From Alcanivorax sp. S71-1-4 (lineage in GTDB: Bacteria > Pseudomonadota > Gammaproteobacteria > Pseudomonadales > Alcanivoracaceae): a DNA stretch of 64,000 nucleotides. The notes under the pieces are model-generated. The model searched no databases and had not been told where the DNA came from. It saw only the letters and a list, made by a program, of their open reading frames with translations. The position numbers and the translations under genes are program-made. The DNA is taken from the NCBI RefSeq assembly GCF_009846755.1, contig NZ_AQOR01000006.1:1-64000 (forward strand), given 5' to 3'. Positions 1 to 10,769 of the stretch are shown here, piece by piece (position 1 is the stretch's first letter; the number at the start of each line of letters is the position of its first letter).

Positions 1-56
1 TCCGGTTTTAGTAGACCACTACAGTCCCAGATTTGCCTCCAGCTTTGCCCGGCGCT

Positions 57-740
57 CTACCTGTCCTGTATTGTGTCCATGAATTGGTGAGTGTCCCCGA
101 TTACCTTATTGCCTGACTCAGAGTCAGTTGCCTCATCAAATATTCTTTCCACTATTTCAGGCACTGCCCCCCCTGGATTACTAACGGAAATTCCCTGAAG
201 AATATCTAGATCATCAATCTCCATCTGCTTCAGCTTAAAGTAACGAAAAGTAGCCTCGCCCTTCTTTGTTTTCTTTTTGTAAAAACAAAACTTCTTACCA
301 TCAACTCTTAATGAAACAATATCTATATGCTCGCGCGCAGAATCCAAATTGGGGTGTACTATCGCATAATTTTTCGAATCATAAACTTTGTGACTCCACT
401 TATTTTTTGCACACTCATGTAAATTTTCATCTAGAAAGCTATAATCTCTCCTTTTGATTTCCATGTTACATCTAACACAAGAAACTGCAATATTTGCCAA
501 ATCGAATATGTAAATTCCGAATACGCCCTTAGGAAGAATATGCTCCAGATGCAATGCGAAACCGCCTTCGCCCAGGGTGTCCCTTAGACAATAGCAACAT
601 ACTTCACCTTGAATTAATCTCTTCTCATTTTTCATTTTCCGTTTAATATTCACAACATAACTAGAATCCCACGGATTTTTTTCAAGCTTGGCCTTGGATA
701 TATTTATTCTATCTTCTTTAGTATAGATCACTATCGCCAT
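57..740 (-). CDS. HNH endonuclease, PtuB-like partner of an ATPase
   Basis: A 227-aa protein with an HNH nuclease core. Visible residues are a CxxC pair at about 48-51, the HxEH motif at 64-67 (sequence HLEHILP), an Asn near 83 and a second CxxC at about 88-91, so the fold probably binds a structural zinc. It overlaps the 3' end of the upstream ATPase gene by 23 nt and is read from the same operon. ATPase + HNH pairs of this kind are the Septu (PtuA-PtuB) anti-phage arrangement and also the effector pair of some retrons; no reverse transcriptase is nearby, so Septu-like is the better label. The last ~15 codons lie inside repeat-like DNA (positions 57-106), so the native C-terminus may have been replaced. 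Low GC suggests transfer. Confidence 0.8.
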   Translation of the reverse strand: MAIVIYTKEDRINISKAKLEKNPWDSSYVVNIKRKMKNEKRLIQGEVCCYCLRDTLGEGGFALHLEHILPKGVFGIYIFDLANIAVSCVRCNMEIKRRDYSFLDENLHECAKNKWSHKVYDSKNYAIVHPNLDSAREHIDIVSLRVDGKKFCFYKKKTKKGEATFRYFKLKQMEIDDLDILQGISVSNPGGAVPEIVERIFDEATDSESGNKVIGDTHQFMDTIQDR

Positions 741-1800
741 CGCCTTTTAATTTTCTCGCCGCAAATGCAATTTCTTTTAACATTTTCTTCTGACTGTCCG
801 AATCAACCATCCTTTCCAGTTCTTCAATTTTCTTTAATACATGCTGATAGGATAATTTCCTGTTTCGATAATCCTCTAAAAAATTAACAATATATCTCGA
901 CAGAAAAGCACTTTGCTGAGAAACTATTTCAAACATCTCCATTAGTTTTTCTTCGGTATTATCGCTGCCATGAAAATGATCCACCACTTTAAAGTTTTCT
1001 ATCTTATAAACCATGCTTTTCTTAGAAATAATTAAAGGCGAATGCGTAGCTATTAATATTCTTGGACTATACAAGTAAAAAATGTCCAAAATACTCTCTA
1101 CGAATTTTCTTTGCCACCGCGGGTGCAGACTATTTTCCGGTTCGTCTATAATAACAACCGCCCCGTCTTCAATATATGCAGCTATGAAAAAATAAATTGT
1201 TATCCTGGCAGCTTCTCCTGAGCTAATTAATGATAATGGAATACATCTTTTATCCTTCTTCTTGAAAAAAAATGATACTGGAATAGGGCTAAGATCATCT
1301 TGAAATCTGAAACTTTCTGATAGATTCTTTATAGAATTAATTCCATAACCGTATCCAGTCGATGAGGAAGAAAGATCTATCCAAAAATCCACATCATCCA
1401 GCCCTTTATTTTTAAATTCTTTTACGTAGTATCCCTCTCTTTGCACACCTCTAGAATAATAACTAATGCCGATATCCGGCAGGTATCCAGAATAATCTAA
1501 AGCTCTAGCTAGAATGTGCGAATTACTATCATTTCTTCCCAAGCTCATCAGGGCCTTAAGAATTGCAATCTTAAACATTTCTGAGCCATAACGAGCCCCA
1601 ATAAAATTATGACGCTTACTATTTAGAAAGAACTTATCCTGCACGCAATTTGCTATTGATATAACCGATCGGCCTTTACTAATATAGTATATGGCGAGAT
1701 CGCTCAACATCTGGCTCTTGCCACCTCCATTGTCACCGATAAGAATAGATACCTGATCATTTTCTGCCTCGTCCACTATTCCCGAAACATCACTTTTCAT
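718..1800 (-). CDS. AAA/ABC-type ATPase, PtuA-like
   Basis: A 360-aa SMC/ABC-like ATPase. Walker A is GDNGGGKS at about residues 22-29, an ABC signature-like LISSGEAAR lies near 190, Walker B is VVIIDEPENSLHP, and the H-loop region reads IATHSP. This is the ATPase domain of OLD/RecF/PtuA-type proteins, but no Toprim domain follows, so it is not an OLD nuclease. The start has a good ribosome binding site (GAGGA, 6 nt before ATG). The N-terminus before Walker A is short for the family. Gene order ATPase then HNH, with overlap, is typical of Septu-like defence. By family knowledge the ATPase controls the nuclease partner; the trigger is unknown. Confidence 0.8.
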   Translation of the reverse strand: MKSDVSGIVDEAENDQVSILIGDNGGGKSQMLSDLAIYYISKGRSVISIANCVQDKFFLNSKRHNFIGARYGSEMFKIAILKALMSLGRNDSNSHILARALDYSGYLPDIGISYYSRGVQREGYYVKEFKNKGLDDVDFWIDLSSSSTGYGYGINSIKNLSESFRFQDDLSPIPVSFFFKKKDKRCIPLSLISSGEAARITIYFFIAAYIEDGAVVIIDEPENSLHPRWQRKFVESILDIFYLYSPRILIATHSPLIISKKSMVYKIENFKVVDHFHGSDNTEEKLMEMFEIVSQQSAFLSRYIVNFLEDYRNRKLSYQHVLKKIEELERMVDSDSQKKMLKEIAFAARKLKGDGDSDLY

Positions 1801-2382
1801 TCAAATCCTCTTTGTAGCCGGCCAGCCCCCACCTTAAAACAAAGTCAGCTTGGACAAATATTTATCATGCAATTCATGTCTCTTCCAAACTTGTCGTGTC
1901 CAAACCCGTCAACCTCCTATAACAGTGTAATGGATTAGCTGCTTTCGCCATAAACCTTCATGAAATTAGTTCTTGTCCTAGATTGGTGTCACATCAGCAT
2001 ATGAATTAGTAAAAACAATTAGTACCTGCCCTGCATTTGCTCTCCTCGTCCGTCTCATCTAAACCATACTTTTTGAATGCCAAGATCCGCATCATCTATG
2101 CGCCCTTCATCGAATTTATGATACATATTTAGCCATCCACTCTTATTCCTTTTTCTATTTCCACTTCTGTCTTTGCCTCTTCATTTGGAGAGCACGATTT
2201 TTCATCTTCGGCACGCAACTCTCCATCTTCTTCGTCCCTTTCAGTTGGGTTAGATGCAGTCATACCAACCTGTGAACTTCCATTTTTAAAGGGCAAACTG
2301 GCAACACCCACTGATTCCATAATCGATCAGCCCGTCGCGATGCCTCAAATCAGTATCTGAATTGGTGGATGCCCCGATTACC
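1801..2382. other. Non-coding, repeat-bearing stretch upstream of the ATPase
   Basis: No convincing gene. It holds degenerate copies of the array repeat (ATTAGTTCTTGTCCTAGATT at 1964-1983 and a weaker one near 2017-2037) and a second repeat type, GAATTGGTGGATGCCCCGAT, at about 2359-2378, which also occurs at about 83-102. Short open frames here (for example 2129-2320 minus) have no ribosome binding site and no recognisable product. Confidence 0.5.
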
Positions 2383-2496
2383 TATCTGGCGATACAGTCG
2401 GCGGCGGAGAAATGGACCATGCCGATCCGCAACTGGAAGCCTGCCCTGAACCGCTTTATGATCGACTTCGGTGATCGCCTGGCCGATTATCAGTGA
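2383..2496 (+). pseudogene. IS256-family transposase, C-terminal remnant
   Basis: A 37-codon open stretch ending in TGA translates to a peptide containing KWTMPIRNWKPALNRF, which matches the conserved C-terminus of IS256/Mutator-family transposases. Nothing upstream continues the frame: the remnant begins directly after a GAATTGGTG-type repeat at about 2380. It is the only trace of that element and marks past insertion and deletion in the array. Confidence 0.75.
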
Positions 2497-2535
2497 GCAA
2501 CCGGCACAGGCAGTTACACAGAATTATTTACAGGG

Positions 2536-2673
2536 TCAGGCGCGGCAGTACTCATAGCTTATTCCGGAGACATCGTCCTGGCCGCACAGAAAGGCTCGTC
2601 TTACGCATAGTCCAATGCAGTGGTAGTATGGGGTATCCGACAGTGATATCTGCTGGGATCTTGGGGTTGTCAT
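2536..2673 (-). pseudogene. RAYT (Y1/IS200-like) transposase, 5' fragment 1
   Basis: Starting at an ATG with a strong AAGGAGGA ribosome binding site, 45 codons begin MTTPRSQQISLSDTPYYHC and continue with VRRAFLCG. This is the typical N-terminus of REP-associated tyrosine transposases (HUH family). The frame then breaks and ends, so the catalytic HUH and Tyr are absent. A core repeat lies exactly 91 bp upstream (2764-2784), as in two other fragments here. Confidence 0.75.
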
Positions 2674-2847
2674 GGCGTTCCTCCTTGAGCCATGGCGTAC
2701 CGTAGCAAGCCGAACCGGACAGATTTATAGGCGCTCGGCTTCCCTTCGTGTAAGACATTCCCCAATTAGTGCCTGTCCTAGATTCGTTCCATAGCCACGG
2801 ACAGTCACCGACACAAATCAGGAACGCCCACCAATTCATTGAAACGA

Positions 2848-3341
2848 AATATAGGACAGGCACTTATCAAAGATCTCCGATCTCCTACAACGTTGTAAGA
2901 AATTGGCTATCAGACCTGTAAGCCTATGTGCAATTAGTGCCTTTCCCAGATTTCATACCTTCCAAAATATTACTTTCCATGCTTAGTGCTTACTCGATGC
3001 ATAACAGAGATTAGGGCGCGCGCGCTTATATCGAATAACGACGCACGCGGCGTATCACGGAGACTATTTCGGAACAGGCACTGCAGCCCCAGGATGAGAT
3101 CTACCGTTTATTAGCAACATGCTTACAGAACCTGTAAGAAATTGGCCAACAGCTCTGTAAGCCTATATGCAACTAGTGCCTGTCCTAGATTTTCTGATCA
3201 GCGATCTCTTACAGTACCTGTAAGAAATTGGCTAACAGCCCTGTAAGCCTAGGTGTAATTAGTGCCTGTCCCAGATTTTCTCCCCATCACGAATAGGGGC
3301 GCGCTAGCGCCCCTCCCTGACTGCTTCGACTTGTTATGACT
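2848..3341. repeat. Three long repeat units and a coding-like block, no gene
   Basis: This stretch is built from repeat units: an inverted core at 2848-2866, then units ending near 2952, 3191 and 3277. At 3001-3058 there is a block nearly repeated at 5803-5861; both copies are open on the minus strand and encode similar peptides (RDTPRASLFDIS versus RDMPRESLLDIS), so it is probably a remnant of one lost gene. Confidence 0.6.
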
Positions 3342-3512
3342 TTAGTTCTTGCATCCGTTTTTATCACAGGTAATGCGCTCATGGGATTGGACCCAGTGAC
3401 TGGGATTTTCTCTAGTATTGAAGCCACACCCGGTGGTGCCACCCTTATTGCCTTGATGAACGACTCCTGTTGGACTATGTCTGACCGCCATAATTGACTC
3501 CTCTTGTTTCAT
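3342..3512 (-). CDS. Small Cys/His-containing protein, single-gene cassette
   Basis: A 56-aa ORF starting MKQEESIMAVRHSPTG and ending with ITCDKNGCKN. An AAAAGG ribosome binding site sits ~7 nt before the ATG. The protein has an HQGNKGGTTGCG stretch and a terminal CxxxxC, which looks like a small metal-binding or compact conserved family; I recall similar tails in small cassette proteins but cannot name the family. It is minus-strand like the other array genes and is bordered by core repeats at 3257-3277 and at 3735 (inverted). Function unknown. Confidence 0.5.
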   Translation of the reverse strand: MKQEESIMAVRHSPTGVVHQGNKGGTTGCGFNTRENPSHWVQSHERITCDKNGCKN

Positions 3513-4111
3513 AGAAATGCCTTTTCGCCGGGATTCCACCGGCTCATCAGCAGGCTTTGCCTGGAAGACAGAATGTCGAAGAAACCCACCAATTTCGTAA
3601 GCAATCATCCTGCTCAGATATAAGTGATGTCTCACATCAGAGGCTGAATTGGTGGGCGTCCCATATTTCGCCACCACCTGGTGCGGCAATTGGGAGAACG
3701 AAAGCCTCAGGATTGAACCACCCGAAGATTGATTCATGGGACAGGCACTTATCAAAGGTCGCCTATCTCCTACACGCCTGTAAGAGATTGCCTGCCAGAC
3801 ATGTAAGCCTGCGTCTAATTAGTGTCTGTCCTAGATTCGTCGCGCCACACGGTGCGCCCGGCGAACGCCACCCCCTTCTCCTCGGCTGCCGTCGAAATAT
3901 AGGACAGATACTTATCAAAGATCGCCGATATCCTACAACGTTGTAAGAAATTGGCTATCAGACCTGTAAGCCTGCATGCAATCAGTGCCTGTCCTAGATT
4001 GTGATCGCTAAACTCTTCGCCACTAGTGCCTGTCCCAGATTTCCTTCCAATTAGTGCCTGTCATGGATTTCTGTGTCCTAGATTTATCCTAGATTGTATG
4101 GGAGATGCCCC
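3513..4111. repeat. Repeat-only segment between cassettes
   Basis: Contains inverted cores at about 3735 and 3896 and forward cores at 3817, 3980, 4021 and 4049, some with the CTGTAAG extension, plus a GAATTGGTGGGCGTCCC motif at about 3644-3660. Cores at 4021 and 4049 are only 28 bp apart. I see no credible gene here. Confidence 0.6.
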
Positions 4112-4396
4112 CTATTCACGCTCCCATTTTGCGCAAGAATGGCATTCCAAACCAGCATCGTTGATTGCGGCTTTGATCGCATCCATTAATTCTTCTCTTC
4201 TATAAGGTAATTCTCCATTTTTACGCTTATTTTCAGCAATAGCATAAGCCATTTTTTCCGCCTCAGCATCGCCACAGGTTATGAATGTGCCCGGATGGCT
4301 TTCACACTCTTCAATCGCTTCAGACTCCATCGCAATAGCTTGCGCGGTAGAGTACAGGTCCTCTAACCTAGCCAGTTCCTCTTTCTGTCTACTCAT
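4112..4396 (-). CDS. Hypothetical 94-aa acidic protein, single-gene cassette
   Basis: Begins MSRQKEELARLEDLYS at an ATG 7 nt after a GGAGG site, which favours this start over the ATG five codons upstream. It is acidic and probably helical, with a Cys pair near the C-terminus (ECHSCAKWERE) and another Cys in the middle. No family recognised. It lies between core repeats (4049-4069 and 4635-4655), in the same orientation as the neighbouring cassettes. AT-rich compared with the core chromosome. Confidence 0.6.
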   Translation of the reverse strand: MSRQKEELARLEDLYSTAQAIAMESEAIEECESHPGTFITCGDAEAEKMAYAIAENKRKNGELPYRREELMDAIKAAINDAGLECHSCAKWERE

Positions 4397-4484
4397 CGTT
4401 GCAGCCTCCATTTATTAATGTCAGTTTCGTAAAAAACTTTCAACCTCAGACGATCAGAAATCTGAGAAAGGCATTTAGCGAAGA

Positions 4485-4544
4485 TCACTGATCGCCTAAA
4501 GTACACCAAAAGATTGATATTTTCTGGGGTCTTGGGGTTGTCAT
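4485..4544 (-). pseudogene. RAYT transposase 5' fragment 2
   Basis: The same AAGGAGGA leader and start as the other fragments: MTTPRPQKIS, then unrelated sequence and a stop after 19 codons. The upstream core repeat (4635-4655) is again 91 bp from the ATG. Only the leader and about ten codons survive. Confidence 0.65.
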
Positions 4545-4667
4545 GGCGTTCCTCCTTGAACCACAACGTACCGTAGCAACCCGCACCGGACAGATTTATA
4601 GGAGATCGGCCTCTCTTCGTGTAAGACATTCTCCAATTAGTGCCTGTCCTAGATTTCGTTACTTAGA

Positions 4668-5303
4668 CTAAACTATTGTTGATCTTTTCACGGCACCTCT
4701 GGAAAAACCTGATTGAGAAGCTTTTCCCAGCTTGAAAAATGAGAAAGCCGTCAAAATACTACCAACAACTAAAAAAGCATGGAACCTGCTTATCTCACTT
4801 ACGCAGTCAAAAGACGGGAAGAAGTGAACTACAAGCGCCGCCCAAATAATAGACATGTAAATGCTTAGCATCTGATTTACTTTTGAAACTGATATAGCCG
4901 AGCTACCCGTTAACATCCCAACTATCCCTACAGACTTCCTGTCTAAACTAAATACGACCTTGTATATCGGCCCCGATATTTCATCCTCCAGAAGATCGAC
5001 ATGCTTTTCCCAGTTTTCTTGCCAGAACTTACTTCCTTTGTTAACGCAGACCCACGCACAGGAAAATACAAACCCTAAACAAGATACCAACACAGTAAAA
5101 CTGTCTTTAGCTTCCGCCTCGGATGCTTGAATTGCCACAATTCCGGCAAAAGCTGCGCCGATGAACGTCCAGAAGTAAATTGCTCTCCTCCAATAAAGAT
5201 CTATTTCAAATTTTCTTGTTTCGAGAGCCATCTGGAGCGCCATCTTTTGCATATCTCTGTTCGATTTGAATGTCGCCATGTACTCATCATTACTAATTTC
5301 CAT
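4668..5303 (-). CDS. Hypothetical membrane protein, single-gene cassette
   Basis: A 211-aa protein beginning MEISNDEYMATFKSNRDMQ. I chose this ATG because longer upstream reading would translate through a repeat copy at 5341-5358. Four hydrophobic segments are visible: about 50-65 (FWTFIGAAFAGIVAI), 72-88, 150-165 and 178-195. The pattern is two hairpins of membrane helices around a cytoplasmic charged segment (QENWEKHVDLLEDEISG). This resembles small multi-TM proteins of accessory islands but I cannot assign a family. The stop codon is 12 bp from a core repeat and the start ~40 bp from an inverted one, so the gene is framed by repeats. Confidence 0.65.
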   Translation of the reverse strand: MEISNDEYMATFKSNRDMQKMALQMALETRKFEIDLYWRRAIYFWTFIGAAFAGIVAIQASEAEAKDSFTVLVSCLGFVFSCAWVCVNKGSKFWQENWEKHVDLLEDEISGPIYKVVFSLDRKSVGIVGMLTGSSAISVSKVNQMLSIYMSIIWAALVVHFFPSFDCVSEISRFHAFLVVGSILTAFSFFKLGKASQSGFSRGAVKRSTIV

Positions 5304-5472
5304 AATTTCAATTCCCGATGCGAAACAACAAAAAATAAAAAATATAGGACAGGAACTCGTCAGCAACCGGCTATTTCCTACAGCGCTATAAGAGATTACC
5401 TTCTGGTGGTGTAAGTCTGAGTGCAATTAGCGCCTGTCCTGGATTGATTTGTTGGCTGGCGGCCCTGTAAGC

Positions 5473-5604
5473 CTATGTGCAATTAGTGCCTGTCCCAGAT
5501 TCCCTTTCCTGGCCGCACAGAAAAGCTCGTCTTACGCATCGTCGAATGCAGTGGTAGTACGGGGTATCTGCCAGCAATATCTGCTGGGATCTTGGGGTTG
5601 TCAT
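5473..5604 (-). pseudogene. RAYT transposase 5' fragment 3
   Basis: 43 codons starting MTTPRSQQILLADTPYYHC and continuing VRRAFLCGQE, then the frame runs into a core repeat (encoding SGTGTNCT) and stops. This shows the break point clearly: transposase sequence up to about 5502, repeat sequence after it. Leader and 91-bp spacing match the other two fragments. Confidence 0.75.
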
Positions 5605-5802
5605 GGTGTTCCTCCTTGAACCATGACGTACCGTAGCAAGCCGAACCGGACAGATTTATAGGAGATCGGCTTCCCTTCGTGTAAGACATTCCCCAATTAG
5701 TGCCTGTCCTAAAGATGCAGAGTATTGATGACAGCGACTCTGTCATCTGAAGTTAGCATCTGATTTAGCGACTCAGTCAGCATTGCAACTCTACCTTCAG
5801 AT

Positions 5803-5861
5803 ATAACAGAGATTAGGATGCACGCGCTTATATCCAATAACGACTCACGCGGCATATCACG
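5803..5861 (-). repeat. Second copy of a coding-like block
   Basis: Nearly the same as 3001-3058. On the minus strand it reads RDMPRESLLDISACILISV without a stop. It is probably a remnant of a gene carried by the same element that spread the RAYT fragments. Confidence 0.45.
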
Positions 5862-5902
5862 ACATTCGGATGAAAATCAATCTAGTGCCTGTCCTAGATT
5901 TC

Positions 5903-5937
5903 CTGAGAGACATTGTCCTGGCCTCACAGAAAGGCTC
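5903..5937 (-). pseudogene. RAYT transposase internal fragment 4
   Basis: A short stretch reads RAFL-stop-GQDNVSQ on the minus strand, matching the RAFLCGQDDVSG segment of fragment 1 with Cys changed to TGA. It lies between core repeats at 5880-5900 and 5942-5959. Confidence 0.5.
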
Positions 5938-5967
5938 GTGCAATTAGTGCCGGCCCAGACCTGCCCC

Positions 5968-7020
5968 TTATTTCAAATGCTTTATAAAACTCTTACCTAT
6001 GACTTTTCCTAATTTGACAGGCACCGCGTTTCCAATCATTGTTCCCAATTTTGTAAAGCTAACATCTTCGCCAGGGCTAAGAAATTTATAACCTTTAGGA
6101 AAGGTTTGTAATAGCGCTGCCTCGCGTAAAGAGATAGCTCTATTCTGTTCGGGATGCCCAAATCGCCCATTGCCAAACCCATAACATTGGGTCGTTATAG
6201 TAGGGCTTGGTTCGTCCCATTCCATCCTGGCATAAACACCAAGGTACGTTTTACCACTTTCCTTACGATGGCAATCAGCCCTAAGTTCCGGAGGCCAATC
6301 AAGCCAAGATCCTCCTGGCTTTGATTTTTTAATTCGTGTGATATTTATGTCAGACAGCCCAGCAGCAGCATGCAGCGGATCCAAAATATTTTTTTCACCA
6401 GCTTTCAGCGGTGGCAATTTCTCAATTGTCTCTCGTACCGTCTTATAGCCAGATGTCTTTCTGCTCGGAGCAACTAGTTCTATATGCCCTATTCTAGAAG
6501 CTATAAGGACGTGACGCGTGCGCCTTTGAGGCATGCCATAGTCAGGGCAATACACCTTGTCCGCCCATACTTCGAATCCAGCGCTTTCCAAGTGTGAAAC
6601 AAAGTCATGATACACTTTGTGTTTTGCCACATCAGGAACGTTTTCCATCGTTACCAGCTCAGGCATTACATCATCTATAAGACGAGAGAATTCATACAGC
6701 AACGGCCAGCGCATGTCGCTTTTAGCGTCTCTTCCTTGAGAATATTTGGAGAATGGCTGACATGGAGCACACCCAGCCAAGAGCTTTATATCGTTTTCTG
6801 GATATAGATGAAGCAGATCTTTAGCTTTAATATTTTTAACATCTTGAGTGAAAAATTTTGCGCCATTATTGTTTTTTTCATAAGCAAATCTACAAGAACT
6901 TTGAATATCAAATCCAGCTGTCACATTTATCCCTGACTTTATTAGCCCATGGGTAAGCCCGCCTGCACCACAAAACAAGTCAATAGCGGATATACGATTA
7001 TCTTTCTTCATACAGTTCAT
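5968..7020 (-). CDS. C5-cytosine DNA methyltransferase
   Basis: A 350-aa enzyme with all C5-MTase motifs: motif I AIDLFCGAGGLTHGL (about 12-26), motif IV GCAPCQPFS with the catalytic Cys, motif VI MENVPD, motif VIII QRRTRHVL, motif IX around SLREAALLQTFP and motif X GNAVPV near the C-terminus. It transfers a methyl group from SAM to cytosine C5 in a specific DNA site; the site cannot be read from sequence. It begins 19 nt after the stop of the GHKL-TIR gene and is presumably co-transcribed. No cognate restriction endonuclease is visible, so the GHKL-TIR protein may take that place. AT-rich compared with the core. Its stop is 8 nt from an array repeat. Confidence 0.92.
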   Translation of the reverse strand: MNCMKKDNRISAIDLFCGAGGLTHGLIKSGINVTAGFDIQSSCRFAYEKNNNGAKFFTQDVKNIKAKDLLHLYPENDIKLLAGCAPCQPFSKYSQGRDAKSDMRWPLLYEFSRLIDDVMPELVTMENVPDVAKHKVYHDFVSHLESAGFEVWADKVYCPDYGMPQRRTRHVLIASRIGHIELVAPSRKTSGYKTVRETIEKLPPLKAGEKNILDPLHAAAGLSDINITRIKKSKPGGSWLDWPPELRADCHRKESGKTYLGVYARMEWDEPSPTITTQCYGFGNGRFGHPEQNRAISLREAALLQTFPKGYKFLSPGEDVSFTKLGTMIGNAVPVKLGKVIGKSFIKHLK

Positions 7021-7039
7021 CTATTTTGACGAGATTAGT

Positions 7040-8938
7040 TCACCCAACAACATCTACCAATCTTCTTATCTCCCCCATTATCTCATTTCTTGGCTTCGAC
7101 TTATACCCTATTGATGTCGTTACGCCTTCTATTTTTTCCGCCACTCTATTGGCGTCATGTAGAGAAATTTTTATTCCACCCTCTTCATCACTTTTTATGT
7201 TCGCCCACACGACATCTATATCTAGCGGTTTTTCCGGCCTATGGTCATTAATATTAAAAATGTCATGTTTACTTTTTGCTATCCAACCAGCTCCAACCTC
7301 AGAAACAGCCGCCCAACTATTCTTCATTGATTCACTAGTAACGTATACGACATGTATCTTTTGCGTGGAATAGCTTTCTACAAAAAACTCTCGAAGGTAA
7401 TCAAATATTGGCGCCCCTCTTGGTATTACACAAGCAGGATTATCTGATGACGTGTATATTATATCTTCTGCGGGAAGGCCATTAAAAATCATCATGTGAA
7501 GTATAAAGTCGCACACCCCTTTATCTACACCAGAATGACTAATAAGTATTTTTTTCTTGCTCTCATCTATTGTTCTTTTAATCCCCATATTGGGTAAATT
7601 TTTATTTATGGCCTGAGATATAAATTCCTTCAATGATTCCTTAGTCGCCCCTTCAAAATGAAAATTTTTTGAAAGAACATCTGCTGCGGTTGATGAAGCG
7701 GTGTCCTTAAATAAATCCACTTGCTGTTTGAATTCCTTTTCTCGCGCCGATTCCTTTTCATTTTTATCCTTATCTTTCTGCTGTTTAACATACGACGCGT
7801 ATTTGGTCCTTAAAGCTACAACATTTGGCAAAAGGTCCTTCCTAACGTATTTTATGACCTCCATGTATCTTACATCATCCGACTTGTAGCCCTGCCTATT
7901 ACTAAGAGCCATATCGGGGAGCGTTGTTTCTTCGAACAGATCAACATGCAATTGCCCCACTACGTATACTTCAGCCATTGCATTCTTACCCACAATTGGA
8001 AGAATGTTGTATTCACCCAATTTTTTATTTGATAGCAAGGATATGAAGTTATCTGGAAAATCAGAAGCTTCTTTTTTTCTATCTTTCGTCGAACGATAGA
8101 ACCCTATCCACCCCTTCACTTCCAACTCAAATGAATCTTCTTCCCCATCTTTGCAAGTTAGAATAATATTCTTTTTGAAACTCGGTCTCTTTTTCAAGAG
8201 CTCTTTATCGTGCTCCCTATTTATCAATGAGCTATTGAAGTGCTTTGCCAACCATTCATGCTCTTCCCCAAGAATAATAAGCCCTCCAAGACCTTCGATT
8301 AATTCCCGCTCAAATGAATCAATAACAATTTCATTCTTACCGGTGATAACGTGAATTTTGAAGTCACTATCTACGAGAGGAAATATTTTTAGTATATTAT
8401 TCTTTATGGCGCCAATCGTCTTATGCAAAGTATACTGAGGGCTCTTCATCACGACAGAAGTTCCGTTTCCAGATATTTTCTTGAAGGCTATGTCATCTTC
8501 TGGAATAGGACTTAGCATACGGTCTTCACCAACATGCCTTGAGAGAACAAATCCTGATCTTTCTCCATCTTTAATAGTCTTTATTTCTACGTCCGGTGAC
8601 ACCGATAGTGCGGCAAGCTTTCCAACCCCCTTCCTCCCCATTTTTTTCCTAGACCCATTGCTTCCTTTTACAAACTCTTCTCTTCTTTCTTTCCTAGTTT
8701 CTTGGGCTACATTGAGATATTTTTCAATATCTCCATCTTCGTAAGACATACCATGACCGTCATCTTCAACCGTCAGCTGTCCTTTTTCTTGTATAATGTA
8801 AACATTCTTTGCATTAGCATCATAAGCGTTAGCTATAAGCTCAGCGAGAATAAAGTAGATGTTTGTGTAAAGACTTGGTCCGAGAAGCTCCAGAATTCGC
8901 GGATCAATGGATATCTTATACTCTTTGGAACCGGTCAT
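7040..8938 (-). CDS. GHKL (MORC/Hsp90-like) ATPase with TIR-like C-terminal domain
   Basis: A 632-aa protein. The N-terminus has a GHKL ATPase: N-box ELIANAYDANAK (E33, N37, D40), G1 motif DDGHGM (59-64) and G2 motif GRKGVGKLA (101-109). A transducer-like middle part follows to about 380, then a charged Lys/Glu-rich segment (380-410). The C-terminal part from about 462 reads KKILISHSGVDKGVCDFIL and later VVYVTSESMKNSWAAVSE; this is the layout of a TIR-type domain, with E547 in SEVGAGW as the candidate catalytic Glu. TIR domains often cleave NAD+ in defence systems. First gene of an operon with a C5 methyltransferase. GHKL ATPases are known partners in restriction-modification loci, but I do not know a named system with this fusion. 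Confidence 0.75.
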   Translation of the reverse strand: MTGSKEYKISIDPRILELLGPSLYTNIYFILAELIANAYDANAKNVYIIQEKGQLTVEDDGHGMSYEDGDIEKYLNVAQETRKERREEFVKGSNGSRKKMGRKGVGKLAALSVSPDVEIKTIKDGERSGFVLSRHVGEDRMLSPIPEDDIAFKKISGNGTSVVMKSPQYTLHKTIGAIKNNILKIFPLVDSDFKIHVITGKNEIVIDSFERELIEGLGGLIILGEEHEWLAKHFNSSLINREHDKELLKKRPSFKKNIILTCKDGEEDSFELEVKGWIGFYRSTKDRKKEASDFPDNFISLLSNKKLGEYNILPIVGKNAMAEVYVVGQLHVDLFEETTLPDMALSNRQGYKSDDVRYMEVIKYVRKDLLPNVVALRTKYASYVKQQKDKDKNEKESAREKEFKQQVDLFKDTASSTAADVLSKNFHFEGATKESLKEFISQAINKNLPNMGIKRTIDESKKKILISHSGVDKGVCDFILHMMIFNGLPAEDIIYTSSDNPACVIPRGAPIFDYLREFFVESYSTQKIHVVYVTSESMKNSWAAVSEVGAGWIAKSKHDIFNINDHRPEKPLDIDVVWANIKSDEEGGIKISLHDANRVAEKIEGVTTSIGYKSKPRNEIMGEIRRLVDVVG

Positions 8939-9179
8939 GGACGCACCTTATTTATCACCATTCCTATCATTCCTCCTATTCAAGAGGACTTCTATTATAT
9001 TTCTCAGCTAGCCATTTGAGATTATTCTCTATCTTTAATTTTAATAATTGAAAAAGTATTTTATTGTGCTGTATTATCTATTCCGATTAGTTGGTGCTTG
9101 AACACACCTCCCTATCAGCGGCCCTTCCCACCGCACCCGAAAGCTGCGGTTTCCAACTCAAGCCTTGGAGACCAACCCA

Positions 9180-9437
9180 ATGAAACCCCAACACCCCCAC
9201 TTCAAACCCCGCACCATCAAACTCAGCTACCTCTGCTACCCCAACCCAGACCCGTTCAAACGCACCCCACCCAAAACCGTGCCATTTTTACGCTTCTCCG
9301 GCCTCTGGCTAACCGCCGCCGGCTTCCACCCAGGCCAACACTGCAAAGTCACCGTCGCCAACGGCGCCCTGCTGATCACCGCCGAACCACCCGCGCCCGA
9401 GCCCCCGGCCAAACCCAAACGCAAACGCCGCCACTGA
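9180..9437 (+). CDS. SymE-like toxin family protein
   Basis: An 85-aa protein. The segment PFLRFSGLWLTAAGFHPGQ followed by VTVANGALLIT is the SymE toxin domain (AbrB-like fold). The ATG at 9180 is 9 nt after GGAG; a TTG five codons upstream is less likely. The N-terminus is Pro/Lys-rich and the C-terminus ends in a basic PKPKRKRRH tail. In E. coli SymE is an SOS-induced, antisense-controlled protein encoded beside restriction genes; the neighbouring methyltransferase operon fits that habit. No LexA site was identified. Its GC is like the core, unlike the AT-rich genes to the left. Confidence 0.8.
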   Translation: MKPQHPHFKPRTIKLSYLCYPNPDPFKRTPPKTVPFLRFSGLWLTAAGFHPGQHCKVTVANGALLITAEPPAPEPPAKPKRKRRH

Positions 9438-9448
9438 CAACCCCATCA

Positions 9449-9478
9449 CACAGCCCCGGCACCTCGCCGGGGCCTGTG
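9449..9478 (+). terminator. Hairpin after the SymE-like gene
   Basis: CACAG + CCCCGGC pairs with GCCGGGG + CTGTG around a 5-nt loop, with a single bulged C. It is a strong stem 11 bp past the stop codon but lacks a clear U-tract. Confidence 0.45.
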
Positions 9479-9859
9479 CCACGAATCACCAGGCACGCTA
9501 CCGCCCCGTCAACGCAAACGGTTCTCAAACGAAAACAGTTCGCTCAACGTCAAAAAATCTCGATTTAATAACGGGAAAACCAGAATTAAAAAGGAATCCC
9601 CAGTAACCTATTGTTTTTCAAAACCCCGGGGCAACGCGAGCGCAAAGCCAAAGCGCACGCGCGCCGAAACACAAAGCTGATTAATATCGTTATGCTATTA
9701 TTGGAAACAAATTCAGAGGATATGCTGCAACGCTAACGCAGCCATGATCCTTGGCCTGATGTGTTCCCTTATGAGTGATGGCATTGAGTGTGCACAGTTC
9801 ACATTTTCTGTGCAAGCGTCTGGGGCATGGGCGGGGTGAACGGGATATGAACGAACGCG
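9479..9859. other. No gene seen
   Basis: About 380 bp with mixed base composition and no credible ORF, tRNA or repeat. It is a boundary zone between the accessory region and the toxin-antitoxin-like genes. Confidence 0.4.
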
Positions 9860-10089
9860 TTATTGAAGGGATACCGCAACTTGGTGACCGTGGGCTTCTG
9901 GACTAGTAGATTCTGGAATAGGTTCGCCATCTTGAAGGCGGCATTCAATCGCCAGTTCAATAGCTTCGATAACGTTTTCGAGTGCTTCTGCTTCCGTATT
10001 TGCCGAACACTGACCACTTCGGGGAAGGCCGGGCAGAGCGCTAATACAACACCGTCATCGTTCAGCAGCGTTACATTGTATATCGGCAT
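9860..10089 (-). pseudogene. HicB-like antitoxin, frameshifted
   Basis: Frame 1 reads MPIYNVTLLNDDGVVLALC then PAFPEVV, typical of the HicB N-terminus. The next frame continues the family as NTEAEALENVIEAIELAIE, then CRLQDGEPIPES, and ends at TAA (9860-9862). The switch falls near 10010, so a single indel splits the gene. The 230-bp length, not a multiple of three, agrees with that. No HicA toxin is adjacent; it probably has been lost. The gene sits just downstream of the DUF2442 gene on the same strand. Confidence 0.65.
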
Positions 10090-10100
10090 AATTCCCCTCT

Positions 10101-10346
10101 TCATTGACTAACTTTCTGGCCACGCAGCAGCCCCTCAACCGAAATATCTTCATCCAACTCGGGCCAGTGAATCCCTAGCCCACCGCCCATCAGCACATAA
10201 TTCTCACGCTGCGATGGCGTTGCCGTCTGCAATCGCGGGAACCAGCTCAAAGGAATAGAAAGCCGGCGGCCATCCTGTAAATCGACCAGTAAATCACATT
10301 CCGTGCATTGAATGTTTTGCGCGCAGGCATTTTGATGGGGTGACAT
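10101..10346 (-). CDS. DUF2442 domain protein
   Basis: An 81-aa protein whose C-terminal half reads LSIPLSWFPRLQTATPSQR and IHWPELDEDISVEGLL, the DUF2442 signature. The ATG at 10346 has an AAGGA site 10 nt upstream; longer in-frame reading lacks one. DUF2442 proteins are often the second gene of a pair with DUF4160 and are thought to act as antitoxin-like or regulatory partners. Here the expected first partner is missing. A HicB-like remnant follows 11 bp after the stop codon. Confidence 0.75.
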   Translation of the reverse strand: MSPHQNACAQNIQCTECDLLVDLQDGRRLSIPLSWFPRLQTATPSQRENYVLMGGGLGIHWPELDEDISVEGLLRGQKVSQ

Positions 10347-10455
10347 ATCAGCCGTTCCTTCAGCTTCGGTACAGCCGGCCATGGCTGCGTTGTATGCGTG
10401 GACTGGATAGAAGACTATAACGGTCGGTGGAATGTCGGCAACCAGGGAGGCCGTT

Positions 10456-10641
10456 ATGCAGGACAAGGATAGCGAGACTCAGACCCGTCACGGGTTGGAA
10501 GCTACGAGATACGACGAATATGTGCTTCGGAAGGTTGAGCGGGCGCGTGCTTCGGCGGTGGCTGGGCGGGTGTGGAGTAATGAGGTGGTTGTGGCGTTGT
10601 TTCGAGCGAGGCGGGAGCGGGTATTGACCTCCGGGGAGTGA
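10456..10641 (+). CDS. Small antitoxin-like (stability determinant) protein
   Basis: A 61-aa protein starting MQDKDSETQTRHGLEA. The core RYDEYVLRKVERARAS and later NEVVVALFRARRERV resemble the small 'stability determinant' antitoxins paired with RelE/ParE-type toxins, but the match is by eye. GGGAGG lies 5 nt before the chosen ATG; an in-frame ATG at 10432 is possible. No toxin gene follows, so it would be an orphan. Confidence 0.45.
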   Translation: MQDKDSETQTRHGLEATRYDEYVLRKVERARASAVAGRVWSNEVVVALFRARRERVLTSGE

Positions 10642-10657
10642 GGCGAGTTTCGGCCGC

Positions 10658-10688
10658 GTGGGTTTCGCTTCGCTCTTCCCACCCTACG
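10658..10688. repeat. Palindromic intergenic repeat, copy 1
   Basis: GTGGGTTTCGC ... CCCACCCTACG, a palindromic unit that occurs six times in intergenic spaces of this window (also near 21931, 27317, 27452, 46886 and 47090). Confidence 0.7.
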
Positions 10689-10769
10689 CGAGCAGTGGAG
10701 GCGTTTGGTAGTGAGGCCGGGGAATGACGTTACGACCCCCTCACCGCCCCTATAAAGAAACAAAAACAG

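Follow-up and report, generated by a model that had tools for sequence, protein, structure and literature searches.

The first 64,000 nucleotides of contig NZ_AQOR01000006.1 of Alcanivorax sp. S71-1-4 (hereafter the window) contain two adjacent genes on the minus strand, one encoding a GHKL ATPase fused to a TIR domain (GHKL-TIR), the other a C5 cytosine DNA methyltransferase (C5). Judged from sequence, we consider it fairly probable that this pair is built like a restriction-modification unit, with the nuclease replaced by a predicted TIR NADase that is restrained by methylation. What we observe is the architecture of the pair, the homology of its sensor, conserved active-site residues in both modules, co-occurrence with C5 genes across phyla, the presence of related loci in DISARM operons and varied effectors among relatives. 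The features of the pair are (window coordinates):

7040..8938, minus strand: GHKL-TIR protein gene, 632 amino acids (aa); restriction-enzyme-like sensor plus TIR effector, from the open reading frame (ORF) and profile matches
7679..8938, minus strand: residues 1-420, GHKL ATPase and following domain; homology to BbrUII/HgiDII (NF050001 positions 1-399), with E33/N37, DxGxG and GRKGxGK
7241..7561, minus strand: residues 460-566, SpbK-like TIR core, from PADLOC spbK and a PDB profile match
7298..7300, minus strand: codon for E547, the candidate catalytic Glu of a predicted NADase, which aligns with SpbK E192 and is invariant in 36/36
7021..7039, minus strand: intergenic gap of 19 bp between the GHKL-TIR and methyltransferase genes
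5968..7020, minus strand: C5 cytosine DNA methyltransferase gene, 350 aa; PF00145, key motifs present, best PADLOC model DrmMII

An earlier note, made from the letters of this DNA, had described a same-strand unit of two genes with a 19-bp gap, an N-terminal GHKL ATPase, a C-terminal TIR-like domain with E547 as candidate catalytic residue, a complete C5 methyltransferase and no endonuclease in the pair. All of these points are borne out by the ORFs and by the results given below.

The N-terminal part of the 632-aa protein matches the GHKL family PF13589 at residues 29-143 (E=5.5e-19). Using an alignment of 36 GHKL-TIR rows (two being near-copies of others), we find E33, N37, D40, D59, G61 and G63 invariant in all 34 rows that cover them, and the GRKGxGK motif invariant in 36/36. 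The NCBIfam model NF050001, describing the BbrUII/HgiDII restriction enzyme, matches residues 7-426 over model positions 1-399 of 659 (4.7e-59), at a score of 200.5 bits, which is below the equivalog cut-off of 550 bits. Ten relatives were scanned with the same model: six (L056, L058, L062, L066, L087 and L100; L and G numbers are our labels for loci and genomes) exceed the cut-off over nearly the full model, and the GHKL-TIR proteins L020, L028 and L052 as well as the short L085 match its first 370-408 positions only. When 32 GHKL-TIR proteins were compared with 10 GHKL-restriction enzymes by hhalign, window residues 2-418 aligned with probability 100 (E=3.3e-57); the region between GHKL and TIR, which is the S5 position in paraMORC4 proteins, also aligns with the restriction enzymes. 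The TIR alignment gave no match to the restriction-enzyme alignment (hhalign probability 0.1). Two of our alignments were built without L002 and L020. On these alignments we read residues 2-418 as a homologue of the BbrUII/HgiDII sensor half. The C-terminal nuclease half of that type is absent by sequence, with the TIR in its place.

For the effector half, the PADLOC spbK model matches residues 381-563 (6.9e-24), and a 32-member TIR profile matches SpbK in the PDB (9phb, 4.4e-19). E547, G549 and W552, invariant in 36/36 aligned GHKL-TIR rows, align with the E, G and W of the SpbK stretch NEMGATW, that is E192, G194 and W197; this numbering was set from the mutants N191, E192, G194 and W197 given in PMC12847820 (papers are cited by PMC number, and what is said of each applies to the excerpts consulted). 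SpbK is a proven NADase, and E192 is listed among the residues that possibly contact NAD+ (PMC12847820). The profile matches identify the C-terminal domain as a TIR related to SpbK, with E547 as the candidate catalytic Glu. The Hx[ST]xD motif of paraMORC4 proteins is not present: the window protein reads HSGVD at 468-472, and position 468 is H in 14/36 and Q in 22/36 GHKL-TIR rows.

The 350-aa methyltransferase matches PF00145 (E=2.8e-53), carries the PCQ, ENV and QxRxR motifs, and has DrmMII as its best PADLOC model (2.5e-96). The window pair thus includes a partner methyltransferase as BbrUII/HgiDII systems do. M.HgiDII, of the same methyltransferase family, makes 5-methylcytosine at GTCGAC (PMC5867850), and a guess from family membership would put the window target at or near that site. 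The 4.18-Mb genome has two C5 genes, and any C5 gene is seen in 13 of the 28 genomes of a relatives sample, its own included. Among other neighbours of C5 genes, Vsr-type mismatch endonuclease genes lie next to or near them in L143 (L028), L144 (L047), L145 (L037) and L150 (Pfam-checked in L145 and L150). Another kind of partner is seen in Escherichia coli L115 and L117 and in L021 (8676-11632), where the same C5 family stands beside a MAE_28990 HEPN gene and a DUF262/GmrSD_N gene.

The GHKL-TIR and C5 genes form a conserved gene pair. A pattern scan of the genome collection found at least 407 relatives, of which 80 were kept, and the counts that follow are lower bounds: 34 of the 80 have a TIR (L021-L054) and 46 do not, 39 of the latter matching a profile of the nuclease C-terminus, for which 22 of these 39 had served as input. 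With copies removed and the window, L002 and L020 added, 35 GHKL-TIR loci were obtained. A window-type C5 gene lies within 6 kb in 24 of them, 8 are inside DISARM operons and 3 carry neither label. In 20/24 C5-linked loci fewer than 100 bp separate the two genes, or they overlap (exceptions L002, L021, L022 and L044). Their order and orientation vary; in 17/24 the methyltransferase precedes GHKL-TIR on the same strand, and in the window it follows. Adding G749 and the IMG/VR contig L150 gives 37 loci with mutual identity below 92% (the most alike being L037/G749 at 91.7% and L022/L023 at 90.5%), and in 32/37 a window-type C5 frame, unbroken as far as seen, is on the same contig. These 32 include L032 and L035, whose C5 frames are clipped by the contig start, and L002, whose frame is clipped by the end of the fetched stretch. 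As to the five exceptions, the contig of L040 begins inside DrmMI (with no C5 match in that genome), the contig of L042 begins inside GHKL (with a partial C5 elsewhere in the genome), the contig of L046 ends near DrmMI (with a C5 gene on another contig, adjoining Vsr and DrmD), L048 has its C5 frame in three pieces, and L054 has a C5 of another type together with Vsr. The earlier note had named a lack of co-occurrence in other genomes as grounds for giving up its proposal; the two genes do occur together elsewhere.

C5-linked GHKL-TIR loci are in records that bear the names of Pseudomonadota, Bacteroidota, Bacillota, Actinomycetota, Spirochaetota, an archaeal metagenome-assembled genome and others, many of them metagenome-assembled. 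Of the 369 genomes searched in the class, 17 give a match of some kind, and a match extending from GHKL into TIR is confined to the own genome and G046; the relatives sample has a match in 3/28 genomes (own included, one being weak and partial), and the pair was not found in the congener G752. The plasmid collection gave 28 matching records, with coverage of at least 80% only in Listeria L020. This record (NZ_CP030101.1) is a 2.9-Mb Listeria monocytogenes sequence filed as a plasmid, with 12 annotated features and a chromosome-like size, and it holds a C5 and GHKL-TIR pair. Two records of the phage collection match, neither into the TIR. Among viral contigs, 1/80 kept loci is GHKL-TIR, namely L150, with GHKL-TIR, Vsr and C5 genes. 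In E. coli 152/5426 genomes match, none over 80% of the query, and in four fetched loci the methyltransferase is beside a GHKL-nuclease (L114, L116) or the HEPN/DUF262 pair (L115, L117), not beside GHKL-TIR. The C5 and GHKL-nuclease genes of L114 and L116 lie near a portal gene, in prophages with P2-like gene sets as read from annotation.

Nine of the 37 GHKL-TIR loci (8/35 tree loci and G749) sit inside DISARM operons, between DrmMI and DrmA. Operons with drmD and drmMI are called 'class 1' DISARM. Around the GHKL-TIR gene PADLOC calls DrmD, DrmMI, DrmA and DrmB in L037, a DrmMI fragment and mREase_II in L036, and DrmD in L028; the remaining DISARM loci were labelled by similarity to the genes of these three. 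The order C5-(Vsr)-DrmD-DrmMI-GHKL-TIR is found in L028, L035, L037, L047 and L051, some of which have one or two genes more. The congener G749 has C5-DrmD-DrmMI-GHKL-TIR-DrmA. L036 has a convergent C5 gene beyond DrmB, and L028 and L046 have a second DrmD-like helicase between GHKL-TIR and DrmA. A gene resembling methyl-directed restriction enzymes (PADLOC mREase_II, 6.4e-153 in L036) lies between GHKL and DrmA in L036 (7881-9080) and in L074, after GHKL-TIR and after GHKL-nuclease respectively. A version of DISARM with GHKL-nuclease also exists, and a window-type C5 gene is present in 12/12 genomes that have it. In 11/12 the C5 gene would be 7-14 kb upstream on the same strand, as judged by coordinates alone with contig identity assumed; in L061 it must be on a contig other than that of the GHKL-nuclease DISARM. 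The window itself has none of drmD, drmMI, drmA and drmB, the DrmMII-like methyltransferase being the only such gene seen, and the DrmA model has no match in the own genome.

Which effector is joined to the sensor varies among relatives. A tree of 84 GHKL halves requires 4 changes of the TIR/non-TIR label and 6 of the C5/DISARM context; L055 is clipped at the contig end, which makes its non-TIR label meaningless and may inflate the 4 changes. All 12 nuclease rows from DISARM fall together (support 82), and the 8 TIR rows from DISARM need 5 changes. Not in this tree are L001 (same as the window), L025 and L053 (copies of L024 and L052), L009 (TIR without GHKL), L018 (from the L004 genome), and L005-L008, L010-L013, L015-L017 and L019 (distant GHKL or no match). 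An example of exchange is given by L052 and L096, whose GHKL halves are 36.5% identical and group with support 100 on long branches, as do their methyltransferases: the L052 TIR is 44% identical to that of the window, and the L096 C-terminus is PF09509 (Hypoth_Ymh, 4.1e-12), a HEPN family (PMC3710099). L085, L094, L097, L099 and L014 have a short C-terminal domain that contains an RxxxxH pattern and by eye appears HEPN-like; Pfam gives no HEPN call for L014, L085, L094 and L099. The best reading of these patterns would be a restriction-modification chassis with an exchangeable effector. To a more specific version we give roughly even chances: one methylation-sensing GHKL module and one C5 family combined with exchangeable outputs (DNA nuclease, TIR NADase or HEPN RNase), the nuclease and TIR versions being built into class 1 DISARM after DrmMI.

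As to how the pair might work, the C5 methyltransferase would methylate target sites in the host genome, and the GHKL module, probably a dimeric ATP-driven clamp shared with BbrUII/HgiDII enzymes, would inspect DNA. Unmethylated target DNA of a phage or plasmid would change the state of the GHKL module and draw the TIR domains together, and the clustered TIR domains would then hydrolyse NAD+, with arrest or death of the infected cell as the outcome. That GHKL controls a fused effector is plausible because VcSduA needs both its GHKL Glu and its nuclease Lys (PMC12137116), and clustering because the TIR domains of SpbK act in this way (PMC12847820). DNA recognition, methylation sensitivity, TIR clustering, NADase activity (with NAD+ depletion), an abortive outcome and a methyltransferase acting as antidote are what we infer from the observed parts. 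The earlier note had likewise proposed that methylation marks self and that GHKL fires the TIR; this idea is strengthened by the sensor homology to BbrUII/HgiDII and the shared C5 family. For its further suggestion that GHKL senses damaged DNA we find no evidence here.

Several observations weigh against this picture. Pfam calls no TIR in the TIR region of the window protein, and PF13676 reaches just 1/32 members. Within the methyltransferase, the target-recognition region (bounded by us at residues 185-262) differs by about half between systems, with median identities of 45-59% in comparisons having more than one pair, which leaves a shared target unproven; the remainder of the protein is about as diverged. 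On the methyltransferase tree the labels TIR, TIR-in-DISARM, non-TIR and HEPN are intermingled, with 14 changes, so that a given methyltransferase lineage is not tied to one effector (label RE stands for non-TIR in this tree, 6 of the 31 RE rows, L014, L085, L094, L096, L097 and L099, being without a nuclease-profile match; the short L057 was left out). The trees are of a quick type, and the long-branch warnings for the tree of GHKL halves name L052, L096, L002, L048 and L054. Many loci are metagenome-assembled, the GHKL-TIR frame is split in L027 and L044, and a sample drawn with a GHKL query is biased towards loci with GHKL. DrmA is found at E<=1e-50 in 10/398 genomes of the phylum, and in all 9 sampled genomes where the stretch upstream of DrmA is visible there is no GHKL match (in the tenth, G536, it is clipped by the contig end); the DISARM link therefore holds only for a subset. 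One of these genomes, G698, has a window-type C5 gene upstream of DrmD and no GHKL in the slot. A simple link of the C5 gene to DISARM was also considered: among the 10 DrmA genomes only G698 has a window-type C5 at E<=1e-20, and G629 has a more distant one (6e-19). We conclude that GHKL is an accessory of a DISARM subset, and that the C5 gene goes mainly with GHKL, G698 being the exception.

Other explanations of the pair can be weighed against the same data. It might be argued that the GHKL-TIR protein senses another cue, such as a phage protein, DNA ends, superhelical state or DNA damage, with the methyltransferase serving only to keep background activation down, or acting as an epigenetic regulator. 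For SpbK, the nearest TIR relative with a solved structure, the activator is indeed a phage portal protein and not DNA (PMC12847820), and the GHKL-nuclease VcSduA is a working defence protein for which the excerpts of PMC12137116 mention no methyltransferase. We nonetheless regard this as rather unlikely, given a window-type C5 gene on the same contig in 32/37 loci (four of the five exceptions being cut contigs or a broken frame) and a sensor half shared with restriction enzymes whose methyltransferase partners belong to the same family. Quite improbable in our judgement is a TIR that serves as scaffold or nuclease in a system that restricts DNA directly, as suggested for paraMORC4 in 2008 with a nuclease or ligand-binding role proposed from the analogy to other GHKL fusions (Iyer et al., PMC2292703): the catalytic Glu and the flanking G and W are invariant in 36/36 and align with those of the proven NADase SpbK. 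That proposal also predates the discovery of TIR NADases.

The pair could also be chiefly a selfish addiction module: cells losing the island would lose the methyltransferase with it, the TIR would fire and they would die, any protection against phages being secondary. The low G+C of the island, the few matches in the relatives sample, the absence of a hit in G752 and the nearly constant presence of the methyltransferase fit this idea, whereas the nearby Septu-like pair (57-1800) and the loci inside DISARM operons speak against it; as a full account we hold it to be very improbable, though addiction and a methylation-restrained TIR defence are compatible and do not exclude each other. Finally, bacterial TIR domains are capable of signal production (PMC12847820), and the TIR might work as in Thoeris, producing a signal molecule that acts on an effector encoded elsewhere. 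No third gene beyond methyltransferase, Vsr and Drm recurs in the neighbourhoods listed or tagged (part of the loci), and the 8xMP gene next to the pair is found in no other tagged locus, so that a signalling role appears extremely improbable.

Restriction-modification is usually viewed as a matter of cut or spare. If a methylation-restrained TIR is correct, joining methylation-based self/non-self logic to a NADase output would tie the oldest known immune mechanism to TIR-driven suicide. A two-gene unit would offer a simple route to the question how GHKL/MORC-type ATPases read DNA. That question can be put to the matched natural sets, in which the same sensor and methyltransferase families come with a nuclease, a TIR or a HEPN-like output, even where no phage trigger is known. 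Judging from the GHKL-TIR variants of DISARM, DNA attack and suicide may be combined in one defence: DISARM is regarded as attacking DNA directly, and the TIR version would provide it with a suicide arm.

The pair sits in a variable island adjoining pnp. Other genes of the island are (window coordinates):

57-740, minus strand: Septu-like PtuB (HNH), PADLOC E=1.1e-49
718-1800, minus strand: Septu-like PtuA (ATPase), PADLOC E=6.2e-73
4668-5426, minus strand: 8xMP membrane protein gene, downstream of the methyltransferase (PF24838, 2e-38)

The 8xMP gene was considered as part of the system and rejected, as phmmer finds 8xMP in no other tagged locus. G+C content is 39-44% in 2-kb windows across the pair and 59-68% from 10 kb onward, and because of this difference the region was probably acquired. 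Near window position 9210 the sequence ceases to be colinear with that of the congener G752 (93.9% identity over 2.6 kb), where different genes follow. Since window position 1 is the first base of the contig, the island is visible only in part. Dispersed repeats of four families (59-205 nucleotides, up to 7 copies) lie between island genes at 2576-5861, and resembling stretches recur in the G752 island; they may be an element of the genus that is mobile or serves recombination. Downstream of pnp, some 30 bases (around 10657-10690) recur at 90-97% identity in several other places of the own genome and of G752. Rfam has no match in window positions 1-10500, and promoter and terminator matches are not above the level of shuffled sequence.

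The earlier note knew of no named system with this pair, and here it has to be corrected; it also overlooked the connection to DISARM. In silico work of 2008 had already described GHKL-S5-TIR proteins from restriction-modification operons, under the name paraMORC4 (Iyer, Abhiman and Aravind, PMC2292703), and a different GHKL family near C5 genes was reported in 2021 (PMC8011034). The paraMORC4 proteins share with the window protein the GHKL module, the C-terminal TIR and the neighbourhood; they differ in the Hx[ST]xD motif, and the excerpts of PMC2292703 make no NADase or DISARM claim. The HEF_HK / Response_reg_2 elements (Bellieny-Rabelo 2021, PMC8011034) likewise have HATPase_c_3 GHKL genes near C5 and Vsr, but with other C-terminal domains, and 'TIR' and 'DISARM' are absent from the consulted text. 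In a review on shared domains from 2023 (PMC10952713), an RmuC protein is given as DISARM accessory; GHKL, MORC and HATPase are absent from the excerpts. In the open literature, as covered by titles and starts of abstracts (subscription journals and preprints being outside this scope), we found neither the unit as a defence system nor its place in DISARM.

SpbK of Bacillus subtilis has the equivalents of the three conserved TIR residues, but carries an N-terminal 4-helix bundle that binds the phage portal instead of GHKL (PMC12847820). VcSduA (paraMORC3, GHKL-Shedu nuclease) resembles the window protein in its GHKL N-terminus and C-terminal effector, which there is a nuclease; E27A (GHKL) and K557A (nuclease) each abolish defence (PMC12137116). 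The paraMORC-HEPN (Ymh) fusions described in 2013, to which L096 corresponds here, combine GHKL with a suicide-type effector in restriction-modification loci, the effector being a HEPN RNase and not a TIR (PMC3710099). Class 1 DISARM harbours related GHKL-TIR loci, whereas the window lacks Drm genes except for its DrmMII-like methyltransferase. With BbrUII/HgiDII (NF050001) the window protein has about 400 N-terminal residues in common, the C5 partner is of the same family and both versions occur in DISARM operons; the C-terminal nuclease half is theirs, and the window has a TIR there. Overall, the GHKL-TIR architecture has been known since 2008, when paraMORC4 was described.

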